A stretch of DNA of 64,000 nucleotides from a virus: IMG/VR virus record IMGVR_UViG_3300037278_000142, positions 1 to 64,000 of that record; one strand, written 5' to 3'. Shown one piece after another: positions 50,811 to 60,513 of this stretch (positions are counted from its first letter, which is position 1; every line of letters starts with the position of its first letter). The notes below the pieces were generated by a model that was not told the origin of the DNA, did not search any database, and saw nothing but the letters and a program-made list of their open reading frames with translations. A program made the position numbers and the translations under genes.

Positions 50811-51707
50811 CTACAAAGAGATGAGGTCAAAGGCACCATTGGTGATATAAAGCTTATAGGGGAGATTGGTTTCAATGTCAGTAAACGGCAGGTAGGGAAC
50901 CCCCACTCCACTCAGCACTGGGATAAACTCCAATGCACCACTCGTGACTTGAAGCTGGTACAAGCTGCTCGTAACCGAGTCAATCAGTATCACCTCACTC
51001 ACGCCTGCTGCCACTACAACAGGGATGACAGTCACTGCTCCATCTGCAACTACAACGTTATAGGCACCCTCTGTAACGGTATCCACAAATGTGAATACAA
51101 GCACCGTAACTTGAGCCGTTGTAGTAAGTGCGAGGTGCCCCACCACGTCATAGGCGTCCAACGTAAAGAGAGTTGTTGTAGACACTCCTTCTGGAAAGAA
51201 CACACTCCCAACGCCCCCTGTATCGATGAGCCCAGAGTCATACCCCGTCGCCGTTATTCTAATTTGAACAATACCCGTGGTCTCCCAGATAAGGGTGAGG
51301 GGGACGTAAAGGGCTGTGACCGAGTTAGGGATAGCTCTAAGGATTGCAGTTGGGGTGGGGTTTGTTCCTACGTCTCCTGCGCTACTGTACCCTGCTATCA
51401 AAGCGAAGCTGGGTAACCCCCTCACCCCTGAGTCTATAAAGAAGGGTCTGGGCATGTGGTGTATGGCTTGAATCACTCCCTGTAGGTTGATTGAAGTGTC
51501 CATATAGAGCAGGTACCTATTATTTTCGACATCGAACGCGAATGTACGTACCGGGGTGAGGTACCCATCCACATACACTTCAAGGTCGCGGCGAGGGTCG
51601 AACTCCCCTAGAGGTCCTTCCTGCACAAATGGACCGAGGTAGTCATTCAGAATCCACTGGATGCGGTCAGGGTAGGGGGTATTGGTTTCAAAACTAAACA
51701 TCGTCAT
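50811..51707 (-). CDS. Virion-type protein with three tandem beta motifs (298 aa)
   Basis: 298 residues. N-terminal domain with DRIQWILNDYLGPFVQEGPL and YVDGYLTPV. The last 95 residues contain three copies of the motif D-x-x-T-x-x-x-Y-x-L/V-x-V-x-x-G-A: TEGAYNVVVADGAVTVIP, SSLYQLQVTSGALEFIP and NLPYKLYITNGAFDLIS. Single copies end two other virion-type proteins in the window. Not a named family; probable tail or capsid surface component. Start overlaps the intein-bearing gene by 14 bp. Confidence 0.82.
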   Translation of the reverse strand: MTMFSFETNTPYPDRIQWILNDYLGPFVQEGPLGEFDPRRDLEVYVDGYLTPVRTFAFDVENNRYLLYMDTSINLQGVIQAIHHMPRPFFIDSGVRGLPSFALIAGYSSAGDVGTNPTPTAILRAIPNSVTALYVPLTLIWETTGIVQIRITATGYDSGLIDTGGVGSVFFPEGVSTTTLFTLDAYDVVGHLALTTTAQVTVLVFTFVDTVTEGAYNVVVADGAVTVIPVVVAAGVSEVILIDSVTSSLYQLQVTSGALEFIPVLSGVGVPYLPFTDIETNLPYKLYITNGAFDLISL

Positions 51708-54165
51708 CCCCCACCAACATAGACAGCAGTTTCATCTCTAGTGAAGTCTGCTTGCGTTTCTTCATCTTCTGTTCAACCTGTTCTTTGGTTTTACGCATGG
51801 TGCTCAACAGGTCGTCGTCCGTTGGAACGTTGTGTCCATGCTCTGCCTTCTCAGCCTCAGTCTCATAGGGGAGCCCCTTATGCAAGTGGGGTTCCTTCTT
51901 TATCTTGTCGTGCTCCTGTTGCTCAAGCTTATGTTCTTCGTTCTCCACCATAGCGTTGAGGTCGTCTTCCCCCTCCGGCTCTTCCTTGGACACATCCTCA
52001 GTCTTCGGCGTGTCCACAACCAAGGGTTCTGTCGCGTTCTCATTACGTTCGACAACACCGGGGACTTCTTCCTCTTCGGGAGCCTTCTTACCTTCTTCCT
52101 GTTCACGCAGGGCATCGATGAGCTTTTGTTGGATGCTCTTGTTTTTCTTCTCGCGGAGCTTCTTTATCTCCTGACGCTTCTTCATCGCGTCCTGTTCCTT
52201 CTTCAGTTTCTCCGACTTCTCCGTGGGCTGTTGTTTGTCCTTGTTCCGTTTAACCGTATTCTCACGGATAATGTTCTGAATGTTGTGCTGCACAGAGGGT
52301 AGGATACGTTCCAGCACAGCCTTTTCGTGCTTGCAATTGTGTACGACCACACCATTAGCTATAAATGATTCATCTTCATCCACGGTCAAATCGTGAAAAT
52401 ATTCCGGGGCATCAACATCATTCGCTGAGTGAAGCACTCTAGTAAACCCATCTTGCCATACATCGGTTTCTTGGTTAGGAAGACCTGTATTCAACTGGTC
52501 GATAACATGAGTACGCAACCTACCCCTCATCAAATCAAGAAGCTGGGGGTACTGTTTGTAATTCCAGTAAAGGCGGAAATACCTGTTTTTCTTTCTAACC
52601 CCCTCCTTTTTACCCCGCCAATCTTGGTGGAGACGCCCATGCCAAATACCCATGCTATACAGCATGGTAGATATTTGGGATACAACATGAGGAGAGATTG
52701 AATACACATATTGTTGCCCCGAAGCATCAAAATGCCCATCCCCCAAAGCGTAAGATGACACAAGGGCTTGAATGGCCTCTGTGTTCCACTTAAACACATC
52801 AGGAGCGAGGCGCTTCGTAAGGGAGCCGCACCCCGCCAATTGAATCATCTTAGCCGCAAACTTACCGTCATTGACAATGACATTGAGCCACTTTTTCCCC
52901 CCATAGTTGCGAAACTTAATTTGAATATCAGCTTCAGCCCCGAGAACCCCAAACAATTTGGACTGGATATCCTGCCCAAGAGTTTCGGCCTCGTCCTGAT
53001 TAATCGTAAAGTTTACCCCCCATACACGAGAGGTTACCCCGTTTATATCGCATACCACTCCTTTTGTGGTGGGTCTGCCTGACTTGACCTTATTCGGGAT
53101 TCCCTTTCTATATATTGGGCTACCTTCTGCCAAATAATACCCCAGCAAAGAAGCAAAGTTGGAATCAACTTCAGTGCCTCCATCCCATTGTATTTTTGGG
53201 AAAAACAGGTACTCGTGAAACTCCAATTTATCCGATTCAACCCACCCCAACTTGCCTTGTGAGCAGTCTTCAATTTCAGGATCGCCCACATGGGCGACCC
53301 GGTTTTGCACTCGGGATATAGTGCCCTGACTAACCCCATACCTCTCAGCCAGAGTGTACTGATTTTCTATACTTGAATGTATCTCAGCTATTGCTTCCTC
53401 AGAGAGTTTTCGAGAAGGACGATTACGGTGGTGACCCGGCAAGAACTTACGCCCCCACTTTACCCCCCTATAACCGAGGGGCAGTGAACCTTTACAGCCA
53501 CAGAAGCAGGTTTCATTTCCTCGCACAACAGCTAGTGGGTGCTCTTTAGATACAATCAGGGGTTCGGATGCCCCTTTAGCTCTAACCTCCCGAGCTATCT
53601 CTCCAACATGTGCAGGTCGTCCAGAAACATGAGTAACTTTACGAGCACGCCCTTTATGAGTGACAACCCAATCCCCCACCTGTACATTTTCAATCAGTTT
53701 TTCAGTACCATCCCCCATCAGGACGCGGGTTCCGGGGGCTACGCATAAAACAAAATTCTTACGTAGGTCAAGCCGCTTCGTAGGAGCAGTAAGTTCCGGG
53801 CGTGGCTCACCCAGCAGGGCATCTCGCTGGTGAAGGTTCCACTGAGCCCCCCAGTAGAGATGGGCAGGGCAGCTACAATTAAGCTTCACATCAAGGTCGT
53901 TGGCGTTCTGAGTATCCTCCACCTTGTCCACGTCAAACTTCACCGTCACGTCGTGACCGGCAGGGTCTGAGTAGGACTCACGGCACTTAACGTTGTAGCG
54001 AAGAAACAACTGCTTCGGGTTCGAGTCGAGCAGGGAGGGAGTACAGCCGGGACGACGCTTGATACTAAAAGAATTCGTCTGGCTCACAAGTTCGGGTACG
54101 CTAATCGCCACTTTAGTTTGCGGGTAGCTGATGTTGCCGAGTGAGATGGTGATAAAGGAAGCCAT
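51694..54165 (-). CDS. Structural-type protein with SWIM-like zinc motif, interrupted by an intein
   Basis: 823 residues as translated, 353 after removal of the intein (141-610). The N-terminal domain (1-140) ends in NCSCPAHLYWG…FVL|CKHEKAVL: with the intein removed this is C-x-C…C-x-H, the SWIM zinc-finger pattern. The C-terminal half is a highly charged coiled coil (KEQDAMKKRQEIKKLREKKN). No enzyme motif. Location in the structural unit suggests a virion assembly protein. Confidence 0.88.
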   Translation of the reverse strand: MASFITISLGNISYPQTKVAISVPELVSQTNSFSIKRRPGCTPSLLDSNPKQLFLRYNVKCRESYSDPAGHDVTVKFDVDKVEDTQNANDLDVKLNCSCPAHLYWGAQWNLHQRDALLGEPRPELTAPTKRLDLRKNFVLCVAPGTRVLMGDGTEKLIENVQVGDWVVTHKGRARKVTHVSGRPAHVGEIAREVRAKGASEPLIVSKEHPLAVVRGNETCFCGCKGSLPLGYRGVKWGRKFLPGHHRNRPSRKLSEEAIAEIHSSIENQYTLAERYGVSQGTISRVQNRVAHVGDPEIEDCSQGKLGWVESDKLEFHEYLFFPKIQWDGGTEVDSNFASLLGYYLAEGSPIYRKGIPNKVKSGRPTTKGVVCDINGVTSRVWGVNFTINQDEAETLGQDIQSKLFGVLGAEADIQIKFRNYGGKKWLNVIVNDGKFAAKMIQLAGCGSLTKRLAPDVFKWNTEAIQALVSSYALGDGHFDASGQQYVYSISPHVVSQISTMLYSMGIWHGRLHQDWRGKKEGVRKKNRYFRLYWNYKQYPQLLDLMRGRLRTHVIDQLNTGLPNQETDVWQDGFTRVLHSANDVDAPEYFHDLTVDEDESFIANGVVVHNCKHEKAVLERILPSVQHNIQNIIRENTVKRNKDKQQPTEKSEKLKKEQDAMKKRQEIKKLREKKNKSIQQKLIDALREQEEGKKAPEEEEVPGVVERNENATEPLVVDTPKTEDVSKEEPEGEDDLNAMVENEEHKLEQQEHDKIKKEPHLHKGLPYETEAEKAEHGHNVPTDDDLLSTMRKTKEQVEQKMKKRKQTSLEMKLLSMLVGDDDV
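52336..53745 (-). mobile_element. Class 1 intein with homing endonuclease and helix-turn-helix
   Basis: Residues 141-610 (470 aa). Canonical Cys1 in CVAPGTRVLMGDG, block G ANGVVVHN followed by Cys+1. Two endonuclease motifs, LLGYYLAEGS (about 341-349) and SYALGDGHFD (about 471-480). Between the splicing block B and the first of these lies RKLSEEAIAEIHSS…TLAERYGVSQGTISRVQNR (about 252-289), a clear helix-turn-helix insertion not usual in minimal inteins. Confidence 0.95.
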
Positions 54166-54183: not shown

Positions 54184-54201
54184 TGATAGATTCATGTAGT
54201 T
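54184..54201 (-). promoter_or_regulatory. Late-promoter-like site (RACTAY-N5-TCT)
   Basis: AACTAC-N5-TCTATC, 22 nt before the ATG at 54165. Confidence 0.55.
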
Positions 54202-54545
54202 CAATTGTCAGAGAGACTGCGGAAGTCGAATGGGCTACTGTTGTTCTCACCGTAGAAAACAACTTGAATCCTACTGTGTAGGTTAGGTACCCCAGCGTAC
54301 CCCATAGAAAGGAGGCGACGAACGACGAGGGCTCTCAGGTATTTTCGAAACCCCCTTATATTTTGGTCAGCCTTTGTGTTATTACACCACTCACAGGCGG
54401 GGAGGAGGTTGTCGATGGTGTTCTGTCCACCCATGCAGCGGGGAGTGGCATGGTCTATGGTCTTAGCTTCCCGACCACAGAACCAGCATCTCCCCTCACA
54501 CTTTCTAATAGCTTCAATCCAAAGGGTTCTAGAAATGCGGGACAA
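54201..54545 (-). CDS. HNH endonuclease (114 aa)
   Basis: 114 residues. Full HNH motif: CWFCGREAKTIDHATPRCMG, then NTIDNLLPACEWCNNTKAD, two cysteine pairs bracketing the H-N-H residues. The C-terminal 55 residues are a helical extension. Small free-standing HNH enzymes of this kind nick DNA and behave as homing endonucleases. Sits between two structural genes. Confidence 0.93.
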   Translation of the reverse strand: MSRISRTLWIEAIRKCEGRCWFCGREAKTIDHATPRCMGGQNTIDNLLPACEWCNNTKADQNIRGFRKYLRALVVRRLLSMGYAGVPNLHSRIQVVFYGENNSSPFDFRSLSDN

Positions 54546-56416: not shown

Positions 56417-57862
56417 CTAATTAATATTCAGTGAGAAGCGTTTCTTCCCGCTATCCCAAATACGATACCATCCCTTGGCTTCCGCTTCGGATTTCTCATC
56501 CATGCCTGCCTTGACCCTTAGAGCGTACTTGCTTTTACGAACTGAACCGTTGGTGTACGAGTAATCCGGCTTTAACTCCTCTTCGAATGTGAACCCCAGC
56601 TTTCCATAGAGCCCACCCGTGTGAAACCGATTATCACTAAAGGTGACCATTCGCTTGAATCCCATAGAGCGTAGCTCAGGAAGAGCTAGATGAAGAGCCT
56701 TTTCATGAGGATTCCATGCTTTATATTCATGATTCCAACTAGCCCGATGCCACAGGATGACACCCTCTTCACGTTTCATAAAAACCCATACACCCACAAG
56801 TTGGGTACCATGGTGGGCAGTCACCGTCAGGCCACCGGATGCGGCTCCGAGGTAATGGTACGCATCTAGAAAGGTTCGAGCTTCAAATGGAGTTTCATGA
56901 TGGATAGCAAAAACCGGCTTGATGCGCTTCCCACTCCGGGGTTGAATCATCGAACGTACGAGTGCCTTAACTACATCAGGTTTCTCATTCCACTCATCCT
57001 GATAAATCTGGAGAAGGCGGGTTGCGCCCTGTTGTAACCACTGAAACTTATCGGCGTCTTTAGACCCTTGAAGGTATCTCTCCGAGTGCCATATCAGTCC
57101 ATGGTACTCAATAGCTAACGAGGCCGAAGGAACGTAGATATCCACTGTATGTCGTCTGGAAAACTGGGGAACCAAAGAGGACAAAGGGACTTCCATCTCT
57201 ACCGGAACGTGGTATTCGTTACGAATGAAATCGGCAATATGGGTGGCTGGAGAGTTCGCCATCATACCCATTCGGTGACATCCACAGGACTTAATCAGTC
57301 CTTGTACGAGGGAGTCGCCGTAAACCACTGACGTGTTCCCGCAATCACAAGTCACATTCCACTGGTACTTCCCCCCCTGACCCACTCCATGTACAGTCGT
57401 TGTCGTAAGAGCGCCGAACCGCTGCCCTTCTATGTCCTTGAAGTTAGCGAGTGTGGCTTGTTCTCTCATGTAACAACCACATGAAGACGTGTGTCCACTA
57501 TTCAAGTGAGCAGTGGATACCAGTGCCATGCCCCCACATTCACAAGAGCACTGCCAGAATGACTGACCGTTATACGACCCCTCGTTACGTTGGTGGTCTA
57601 ATGTTATAACTAGAAGCCGTCCGAATTTCCTGCCCACCATACTGGGGATACGATTCTGGCGACTCTCTTTTACCAGACAACCACATGACTTGGATAACCC
57701 TCGCAGCACAGAAGCCCACGATATTTCTTTTGTTCCACCGCAGGAGCACACGAACCGATACTTCGTATGAGACACCCTAAGATTAAGAGGTAGGTTCTCC
57801 TGCTGAGGGTCAAGACGAAGTCGGTTCCACTGCATACCCAGCATATCCATACTAATACCCAA
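56417..57862 (-). CDS. Vsr-like (EDxHD-type) homing endonuclease with repeated zinc modules
   Basis: 481 residues. The N-terminal 200 carry three or four repeated CxCGG…W…SCGC modules (FVCSCGG…SCGCL, QCSCECGG…SCGCY, VTCDCG…SCGCH). Next comes a nuclease core with RRHTVDIYVPSASLAIEYHGLIWHSE (about 232-257), the arrangement of very-short-patch-repair-like homing endonucleases. The C-terminal 150 residues have a GNAT-like look and a NUMOD-like end (GWYRIWDSGKKRF). Occupies the gap between the capsid gene and the next structural unit. Confidence 0.85.
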   Translation of the reverse strand: MGISMDMLGMQWNRLRLDPQQENLPLNLRVSHTKYRFVCSCGGTKEISWASVLRGLSKSCGCLVKESRQNRIPSMVGRKFGRLLVITLDHQRNEGSYNGQSFWQCSCECGGMALVSTAHLNSGHTSSCGCYMREQATLANFKDIEGQRFGALTTTTVHGVGQGGKYQWNVTCDCGNTSVVYGDSLVQGLIKSCGCHRMGMMANSPATHIADFIRNEYHVPVEMEVPLSSLVPQFSRRHTVDIYVPSASLAIEYHGLIWHSERYLQGSKDADKFQWLQQGATRLLQIYQDEWNEKPDVVKALVRSMIQPRSGKRIKPVFAIHHETPFEARTFLDAYHYLGAASGGLTVTAHHGTQLVGVWVFMKREEGVILWHRASWNHEYKAWNPHEKALHLALPELRSMGFKRMVTFSDNRFHTGGLYGKLGFTFEEELKPDYSYTNGSVRKSKYALRVKAGMDEKSEAEAKGWYRIWDSGKKRFSLNIN

Positions 57863-57918: not shown

Positions 57919-58875
57919 TTAGTTCTCGCCTACGTTCGGGGAAGCGAAGCGACCACTTACAGTCAGACGCTGTACGCCGGACGGGTTGAAGACCAAGAAG
58001 CCGAGGTTCTCGAAGATGGAGAAACCAATCTGGCGGAGGTCAGGACGGTCTGCACTCATGACGGTTAGCGGGATACGCTCTGGGATGACACCGAGGAACT
58101 CAGCGTCGGCCAGAATGTACACGCAGCCATAACCAACCTTACGGGACTGGAGCAGAGTTGCGCCCCACAGGTAACCCATAACACCGGTCTTCAAGAGCTT
58201 GCGCTGTGTCTCACGGTCGATGTTCTGCTGTGTCCACTTGAGCAAGTCAGTGTAGTCGCGGGGGTTGAAGAAGCAGAAAGCCACCGAGAGGTCGTGACGC
58301 TGAACCTGACCGAAACCATCAGCCATGCTGTTGATGTCGATAGGAGCCGAAATCGCGATGTCCACGTTGTACACGGGGTCGGTCTGCGCCTTGCCTGCTG
58401 CGGCAGTTGCAACCGCGTCAAACAGGGTGAAAACGTAGCCGTCTTCTGCTGCACCGACTTCAGCCTTCGCCAAGTTAAGCGAACGGGCCACGAGGTCGAA
58501 GCGGCGTTCCTTAATCTGGGTGATAGGAATCATCGGGTTGGATACGATTTCGAACGTCGGAACCGTAACACGCTTCGGCTTTGTCACGCGAACGATGTCA
58601 CCACCTTCTTCACCGACGACGAAGGCTTCCACGAAGCTACCACCGGGGGCCGAGCCCACAGTCATAGCAGCAGTGTCAAATTCCTTATCGTAGATGGGCA
58701 GAGCACCATCGGGCAAAGTCTCAACCATCAGCGCCTTACGGGCGATGGACATATAGTCACGACGACGACGAAGTGACGGGCCAAGCGAGGCAGCAAGCTT
58801 CTGACGACCACCGGCAGTCTTAAGCAACTGTCCGAGCATCGCGGTCTGCTGCTGTGTGCGAGAAAGATTAGCCAT
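57919..58875 (-). CDS. Major capsid protein (HK97-like fold)
   Basis: 318 residues. The opening basic helix (LGQLLKTAGGRQKLAASLG) resembles the N-arm of capsid proteins. The body shows typical beta-rich segments (TFEIVSNPMIPITQIKERRF, ALATAAAGKAQTD-like region) and the P-domain-like WGATLLQSRKVGYGCVYILAD. The end is FLVFNPSGVQRLTVSGRF. Context supports the call: a decoration gene 24 bp upstream, scaffold and protease genes beyond, and a strong terminator downstream. Confidence 0.9.
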   Translation of the reverse strand: MANLSRTQQQTAMLGQLLKTAGGRQKLAASLGPSLRRRRDYMSIARKALMVETLPDGALPIYDKEFDTAAMTVGSAPGGSFVEAFVVGEEGGDIVRVTKPKRVTVPTFEIVSNPMIPITQIKERRFDLVARSLNLAKAEVGAAEDGYVFTLFDAVATAAAGKAQTDPVYNVDIAISAPIDINSMADGFGQVQRHDLSVAFCFFNPRDYTDLLKWTQQNIDRETQRKLLKTGVMGYLWGATLLQSRKVGYGCVYILADAEFLGVIPERIPLTVMSADRPDLRQIGFSIFENLGFLVFNPSGVQRLTVSGRFASPNVGEN

Positions 58876-58899: not shown

Positions 58900-59631
58900 T
58901 TAGAGCAGTGAAGCTACGCCAAGCCAAGGCTCAGCAGCGGAAGGAACATGGGTGCAGATACCGACCGCAGGATTGCCAGAAAGCGTTCCCTTGTTGGTGG
59001 TGTCGGTGTACAGACCAATGTTGCTGTGAGTGGTTCCACCACAGTAGATGTACTTACCGATAACAAACGTCGGCGAGTTCACTGTGTCGTAAGACTCAGA
59101 GTTGACGTTGCCCTGAAACAGGGCGCGGACAATAGGAGCCTTCTTGGAACCGGAGGGACCAATCGCACCAGCGAATTCGCCGGGACCATTGAGCAGGACG
59201 CCAAAGGGCACAAGTGCCGCAGCGGTGTCAGTGTCGGCGGGAACGATGACAGCTTCCAGCGAGGTGTTGACAGCAGGAACCTTGAGGGCAACAATCTTGC
59301 CACCGAGGTACCCAGCCGCAGTCAACGTCTGCTGGTCAGTGCCGGGGTCACCCGTGAGCACAACGTCAGGCGACCACTGAGAGTCGTTCTGTCCGTAATA
59401 CCTATGTGTTATCCACTTTCGTGGAGGTAGGGCATTTCTGCCTACCTCTTATAGTTCACTATTTCCTATAAGAGCGGACTATCGCATCACCGTTTAGGTG
59501 CCCTCTCGCTTAGTCTCTCAGGCTGCACAGTAACTGTTTGTTACTTGCTTGCCCCCTGTTGGCATCTCAGCTTCCAAGTCGATCAGAGTGGGTTTATACT
59601 GGCCTAGCTATTAAGTCAGTTTAAGAGCCAT
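58900..59631 (-). CDS. Capsid decoration-type protein, split by a group I intron
   Basis: Join of exon 1 (59631-59614, MALKLT) and exon 2 (59400-58900); spliced product 172 residues. Read alone, exon 2 has no ATG start, only a GTG at 59361, and begins mid-protein. Joining restores MALKLT-YYGQNDSQWSPDV and puts a GGAG ribosome site before the ATG. The body (GYLGGKIVALKVPA, PFGVLLNGPGEFAG) resembles head-decoration proteins, and the gene precedes the major capsid gene by 24 bp. Confidence 0.82.
59401..59613 (-). ncRNA. Group I intron (213 nt, no internal ORF)
   Basis: P1: exon end ACTGACT pairs with the internal guide AGGCCAGT (59598-59605) and leaves the conserved U-G pair at the 5' splice site. 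P7: AGACTA (59511-59516) with TAGTCC (59476-59481), with an AAACGGTGATGCGA core between them. P9 region: three hairpins, CTCTTATAG/CTATAAGAG (9 bp), GGTAGG/CCTACC, and TCCAC-GAAA-GTGGA. Intron ends in G (…CACATAGG). Splicing restores the decoration reading frame. Confidence 0.88.
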
Positions 59632-59814
59632 TTTGACTTTTTCTCCATGTAGAAGTTTTGAATTAGCCCTCACTCCAATTCTTAGTCGAGGAGACCGACC
59701 GTTGAACTATAGAGCAGTGACTTACTTCACATACCTATGGGGTGGGTATTGGGAGAAAGCTAGACTTACATTAAATTTTAATTTTATGCCCGTTTTTCTG
59801 TCCATAATAAATAA

Positions 59815-60513
59815 GTGAACTACCTATACCTTAGTATGTTCATATACCTAGTTACCAACACGATAAACGGCAAAGCCTACATTGGAAAAACCTCGAAAAC
59901 CGTCAAGGGACGGTGGGAAACCCACCTTCAGAACGCAAAGATGGGGTTGCCCTACCATCTATACCGAGCTATTCGAAAGTATGGGGTTGACGCTTTTCAT
60001 GTACAGACTATCGCAGAATGTAATAACTCAGAACAGTTGAGCGAGTTGGAGAAGATGTGGATTTTGTTACTAGGTACTCACAGCACCAAATATGGGTACA
60101 ATATGACCTATGGAGGTGAGGGGGTTACCGGAACTGAGGAGGTGCGTGAAAAAATTAGACAAAAGGCCATGGGTCGGATTCCGTCTAAAAAACAGAGAGC
60201 AGTTGCGTCAGCCCTCTTCAAGGGTAAGCCAAAGCCTATAATTCAGCGGAAGAAAATGGCTGCTTGGTGGGATGAGACCACACCTATAGGCCAAGCTAGA
60301 CGTAGTAAACAGGCGTTGGTAGCCCGTCGCGTCAATGACATTGAAAACAAGAAACTGAAGGACTACCTATGCCCTGACTGCGGGAATGAGTTTGAGCAAG
60401 TTACCAAAGGCGTATACGGTGGGCACCGTAAGGCGTGCCTACACTGGAAGAGAATGTCTGAGATTGTCGAAGAAGAAATTGGGCTGACCCTAGACGAGGT
60501 ACTAGACTCCTAG
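59815..60513 (+). CDS. GIY-YIG homing endonuclease
   Basis: 232 residues. Core FIYLVTNTINGKAYIGKT, then HLYRAIRKYGVDAFHV, catalytic Glu in LSELEKMWILLLG, and YGYNMTYGGEGV. C-terminal NUMOD3-like helices and a zinc finger YLCPDCGNEFE…HRKAC. Free-standing, opposite strand to the intron-bearing gene and about 200 bp from its exon 1, so it may drive homing of the ORF-less intron. Confidence 0.94.
   Translation: MNYLYLSMFIYLVTNTINGKAYIGKTSKTVKGRWETHLQNAKMGLPYHLYRAIRKYGVDAFHVQTIAECNNSEQLSELEKMWILLLGTHSTKYGYNMTYGGEGVTGTEEVREKIRQKAMGRIPSKKQRAVASALFKGKPKPIIQRKKMAAWWDETTPIGQARRSKQALVARRVNDIENKKLKDYLCPDCGNEFEQVTKGVYGGHRKACLHWKRMSEIVEEEIGLTLDEVLDS

Follow-up and report, generated by a model that had tools for sequence, protein, structure and literature searches.

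The window, meaning the whole 64,000-nucleotide stretch analyzed here, is part of a 183,684-base virus record. In the capsid region it is similar to Tunturiibacter phage Tunturi_5, an Acidobacteriota jumbo phage of 309 kb (PMC11924767). On the minus strand, the gene for a 734-amino-acid protein is followed by a capsid decoration gene and then, next downstream, by the major head (capsid) protein gene (57919-58875; phrog_2522, 4.6e-42). After the head gene comes a gene for a 481-amino-acid free-standing HNH-type homing endonuclease (56417-57862, minus strand). With a GIY-YIG homing endonuclease gene on the far side, the decoration and head genes thus have an endonuclease gene at either end, an arrangement that can be likened to the "HEG islands" (PMC10448857). 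Farther along the minus strand, an HNH endonuclease gene (54201-54545; 5e-8) lies directly before the gene of an 823-amino-acid protein with an intein-like insertion (51694-54165; Hint domains, E 4.5e-9).

The decoration gene is in two pieces, all on the minus strand. A GGAG ribosome-binding site (59643-59646) lies in the leader (ctacatGGAGaa) and is conserved in intron-free relatives. It is followed by exon 1 (ATGGCTCTTAAACTGACT, 59614-59631), which begins with an ATG at 59631 and encodes MALKLT. An intron of 213 nucleotides without an ORF comes next (59613-59401); it begins TAATAG and finishes CATAGG, so that its last nucleotide is G59401. Exon 2 (58900-59400, including the stop codon) opens with TATTACGGACAG and supplies 166 codons, starting YYGQNDSQ. 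These coordinates are as the initial annotation had placed them, and splicing in silico yields MALKLT-YYGQNDSQ. The first nucleotides of the intron form in-frame TAA TAG stop codons, which that annotation did not mention; translation of unspliced RNA thus stops after six codons.

The gene had been described as a capsid decoration gene, and this is supported both by its position before the major head gene and by the predicted fold of its product. By sequence, Pfam and PHROGs give no family for the decoration protein. The AlphaFold model of an intron-free homologue (L010) has a pLDDT of 89.5, and the 21 PDB chains that match it best all come from capsid entries of tailed viruses (T1, FCWL1, BB1, Pam3, XM1, TW1, HFTV1 and phiCD508) and are mostly of decoration-protein size. 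The best match has an E value of 1.3e-3 and a probability of 1.0, while TM-scores are moderate (about 0.36-0.52). The homologue in Tunturi_5 is annotated "tail fiber protein", which is probably a misannotation.

Relatives of the gene were collected by scanning IMG/VR with exon 2, which gave 72 loci (L numbers below denote these loci or contigs). In 54 of the 72, the gene is intron-free and the frame runs from the ATG through a few codons directly into (Y)YGQ. For example, L012 reads ATGGCATTGAAATTGACT|TACTATGGACAA (MALKLT|YYGQ) and L010 reads MALKLQ|YYGQ. These relatives read through the same junction, which bears out an intron after codon 6 and the predicted MALKLT-YYGQ joint. The remaining 18 loci are interrupted, and 5 of them carry the same allele as the window. 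They represent six lineages, from which 8 distinct sequences with introns of 213-261 nucleotides were examined. All eight splice in silico, after a U, to MxLKLx-Y(Y/M)GQND (MLKLD-YYGQND in the L062 type), and all have an in-frame stop within 29 nucleotides of the splice site. Seven end in G and the L062 type ends in A. In that type (L062:3739-3999, also L063, L064 and L067), P1 sets the 5′ splice site after GAU, identically in four assemblies; since the frame is kept, the intron must end in A rather than G.

The interval has the helices of a group I intron. P1 (59598-59620) pairs 59620-59614 (ACUGACU) with 59604-59598 (GGCCAGU) at six of seven positions, with one A-C mismatch, and places a U-G at the 5′ splice site, a feature met in all decoration-gene introns. 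The 5′ strand of P3 (59586-59592) pairs with 59507-59501, with one A-A mismatch in the window copy. P4 (59578-59575 with 59558-59555) and P5 (59571-59570 with 59563-59562) span 59555-59578, and P6 with its extension (59553-59551 with 59523-59521) spans 59521-59553. Within 59477-59515 lie P7 (59515-59511, GACUA, with 59481-59477, UAGUC), the 3′ strand of P3, P8 (59500-59497 with 59491-59488) and J8/7 (59487-59482). Three hairpins at the 3′ end occupy 59412-59474: P9 (59474-59466 with 59454-59446), P9.1 (59445-59441 with 59430-59426) and P9.2 (59425-59421 with 59416-59412), the last two with GAAA loops. The P1 with its splice-site U-G, the P7 pair and the three 3′ hairpins that the initial annotation had recognized were thus all located. 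In structure prediction the region folds with z = -3.0, and none of 200 shuffles folded as low.

Comparative evidence for this structure comes from some 90 distinct intron cores in phage contigs, gathered from seeds at the decoration locus and two motif scans. A group I model of P3, P4, P5, P6, P7 and P8 was written by hand on an alignment of 40 sequences. In this core, 98.1% of cells are paired, and 162 cells show double changes, compared with 48 in shuffled alignments and at most 24 when the partners are slid. P9 and P9.1 are 97.5% paired, with 64 compensatory changes compared with 16.6 shuffled and at most 8 slid. Compensatory change is massive in P3, P4, P6, P8, P9 and P9.1. P7 is invariant, and the search pattern included its 5′ strand; it therefore agrees with the model without being independent evidence. 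Group I introns form a base triple between J8/7 and P4, which makes covariation between these elements expected. One P4 pair behaves in this way: U-A is accompanied by G in J8/7 in 24 sequences and C-G by A in 15, with one exception (39 of 40 fit). On these comparative grounds, positions 59613-59401 are almost certainly a group I intron.

The initial annotation had suggested checking the interval against the Rfam group I model, and this check came back empty. No group I match appeared in scans of the intron, whether at gathering or at relaxed thresholds, and the gathering cut-off of RF00028 was not reached. The reason is that RF00028 misses this intron class: it passes over class members even on L147 and L126, where it finds other introns. 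RF00028 Intron_gpI shares the core helices and the P7 and J8/7 motif with this class, yet it does not match it, and it is known to lack group I subgroups (PMC11878797). Model R1, on the other hand, finds the window copy (105 bits); it had no match in the intron-free homologues searched and found no second intron of the class elsewhere in the 184-kb record. In Roseobacter phage CRP-118 this core separates two annotated RNR ORFs, and in ctn9Y15 it separates two coat-protein ORFs, which is how an intron would be expected to lie. With E ≤ 1e-3, a consensus query hit no more than four named phage records, and most of the core was matched in just two, so the class is known mostly from metagenomes; a pattern scan of genome contigs gave 12 contigs, three of which match model R1. 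Annotation that relies on RF00028 therefore overlooks widespread small phage introns, and gene starts are missed or miscalled as a result.

Introns occur at three positions in the decoration gene, all within its first 19 nucleotides. The window and the L062 type are interrupted just before YYGQ. In L031, L045/46 and L055/57 the intron follows base 1 of the codon for the first tyrosine, and in L041/42/47/49 it follows base 8 of the gene. The gene tree requires at least six changes of intron state.

The initial annotation reasoned that an intron without an ORF would need a helper enzyme for mobility. The likely helper, which it missed, is the free-standing GIY-YIG homing endonuclease gene (59836-60513, plus strand; ORF open from a GTG at 59815) that lies divergently about 204 nucleotides upstream of the decoration gene (Pfam 1.6e-10; PHROG homing endonuclease 3.2e-33), and we propose it as the mobility partner. 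A divergent endonuclease gene is present upstream in all six intron-bearing lineages, compared with about 13 of 31 intron-free lineages (Fisher p = 0.02, on lineage counts made by hand). This means that the endonuclease gene can exist without the intron. The enzyme is of GIY-YIG type in the window and L031 and of HNH type in the other intron-bearing lineages, and L012 and L074 have an Endo VII type enzyme (Pfam 1e-17 or better). The codon before YYGQ showed no clear change in intron-free alleles that bear an endonuclease gene, with T, Q, I, V, D and others found in both sets.

The three enzyme types have a feature in common. The window's GIY-YIG enzyme has a C-terminal Cys/His tail (QALVARRVN...CPDCGNEFEQVTKGVYGGHRKACLHWK, approximately 60295-60450, plus strand) that also occurs in HNH- and Endo VII-type enzymes of this locus and contains invariant C-C-H-C residues. 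Between the window's enzyme and the Endo VII-type enzyme of L074, the tails are 68% identical; the L031 enzyme, a GIY-YIG with NUMOD3, is without this tail. Position and zinc-finger-like residues suggest that the tail may bind DNA. A profile scan of 2.9 million IMG/VR contigs found the tail at 43 loci, beside the decoration gene in all 42 that could be judged, with patterns that were strict and built from the decoration locus and could miss distant tails elsewhere. Among the 33 loci whose neighborhood was checked, the decoration gene adjoins in every case except L294, where the contig breaks off before that point; the contigs of the remaining ten had already been found to carry the gene.

One pair of near-identical phages shows what has been exchanged at this locus. 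L062/63 have the intron and an HNH-type gene, and L065/70 have no intron and a GIY-YIG gene. The two agree at 99.5% of positions in the 2.6 kb upstream and at 99.7% in the 4.5 kb downstream, and between these flanks L062:2637-4000 is unrelated to its counterpart in L065. The exchanged block consists of the endonuclease gene, leader, exon 1 and intron. To the left, the block stops where the endonuclease gene ends, next to a terminator-like hairpin; to the right, it stops within 3 nucleotides of the 3′ splice site. The same cassette is found in a second background, L064/67 (~98% identical). Endonuclease and intron were thus inherited together in this one natural exchange, which concerns the L062/L065 pair and not the allele of the window.

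Taken as a whole, a spliced intron in the decoration gene that spreads by collaborative homing with a neighboring endonuclease very probably explains the locus. Ribosomes would start at the exon-1 ATG and, on unspliced RNA, run into the stop codons at the beginning of the intron. These stop codons mean that the decoration protein can be made only after splicing has joined codon 6 to YYGQ, as presumably happens in vivo. The free-standing endonuclease, here of GIY-YIG type, would be directed to the start of the gene by its putative DNA-binding tail and would cut alleles without the intron at the insertion site or close to it. With an intron-bearing phage as the repair template, endonuclease gene, leader, exon 1 and intron would be copied as a unit, and the donor would be protected by its intron. 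The locus has the components of collaborative homing, namely an ORF-less intron with an adjacent free-standing endonuclease gene, and intron-free alleles in related phages. The homing step taken separately is likely, and intron and endonuclease gene seem to work as a swappable homing unit. With somewhat less assurance, we favor the broader view of a cassette dedicated to one capsid gene, in which a locus-specific DNA-binding tail carries interchangeable GIY-YIG, HNH or Endo VII domains, is accompanied by tiny Rfam-missed introns at several adjacent positions, and is exchanged whole between near-identical phages.

It is also conceivable, though unlikely, that the group I intron is real and the endonuclease independent of it, spreading by intronless homing with the intron as a stationary passenger. 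Endonuclease genes of the same tail family do occur at this spot in many intron-free lineages, and the intron class is also found in other genes. However, a stationary passenger would not be expected to show three insertion positions within 11 nucleotides at one gene start, nor so many changes of state on the gene tree, and the L062/L065 exchange moved intron and endonuclease together with an edge at the 3′ splice site. That exchange might instead reflect ordinary homologous recombination, with breakpoints set by chance or by the conserved capsid gene and the upstream terminator, because phage genomes recombine freely and the left edge adjoins a shared terminator-like hairpin. This is quite improbable given how closely the right edge approaches the splice site, the presence of both alleles in more than one assembly (L062/63 and L064/67; L065/70), and the 99.7% identity that extends downstream from the first codons on. 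A splicing-dead relic, or the absence of any intron, with translation starting at GTG 59361 or ribosomes bypassing the gap, is highly implausible: an ORF with that GTG start exists and Rfam gives no match, but this start would delete the family-invariant YY, P17 and other residues, covariation is strong over tens of sequences, and exon 1 and the ribosome site are conserved with relatives.

Collaborative homing is a kind of mobility that is already known (PMC3984707, PMC6083498, PMC10448857). The psbA intron of cyanophage S-PM2 likewise belongs to group I, interrupts a phage gene and has the gene of a free-standing endonuclease beside it, F-CphI, which is of Endo VII type like the enzymes of L012 and L074 (PMC6083498, PMC3984707). 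In S-PM2, measurements have established that the intron site is cut and that the intron blocks this cut, whereas the decoration locus is known from sequence; it differs from S-PM2 in having several unrelated nuclease domains on one tail and insertions at the gene start in three slightly different positions. In the terL gene of ICP1, an N-terminal exon was also overlooked by annotation, and the T5orf172 endonuclease gene lies beside exon 1 rather than in the intron; gene and enzyme differ from those here, and splicing was shown by RNA-seq and RT-PCR (PMC10448857). The capsid intron of mycobacteriophage LittleE and the tail intron of BAKA are also of group I type and in virion genes (PMC3706429). 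The BAKA intron (265 bp) has no endonuclease, like the ORF-less window intron, and the passages on it describe no adjacent partner, unlike at the decoration locus. The LittleE endonuclease is on the opposite strand, as here, but inside the intron.

How ORF-less introns become joined with free-standing endonucleases is an open question with few worked cases. Three things at the decoration gene appear to be new: an intron class that Rfam misses, insertions clustered at the start of a single gene, and nuclease domains that are interchanged on a locus-bound tail; a literature search found no description of these three, which is not proof of novelty. The gene offers many natural alleles: with and without introns, with introns at three positions, and with three kinds of nuclease sharing a tail. 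In one near-isogenic pair, the cassette is the only difference at this locus. These alleles make the order of events testable.

The class also has members in other settings. In a relative, L088:250-480 (same contig as L023) is an intron of this class in a different gene, where it follows codon 5 (MAQGG); here too the first exon is tiny and P1 contains a U-G. Several group I introns crowd L126 (1027, 1308, 2153, 2467, 3273 and 4802) and L147 (752, 1862 and 2768), some of them seen by RF00028 and others only by model R1. L080, L096, L099, L125, L134 and L157, which belong to the same class, seem to have an ORF that starts within the P8 loop, and the class thus appears to have both ORF-bearing and ORF-less forms.
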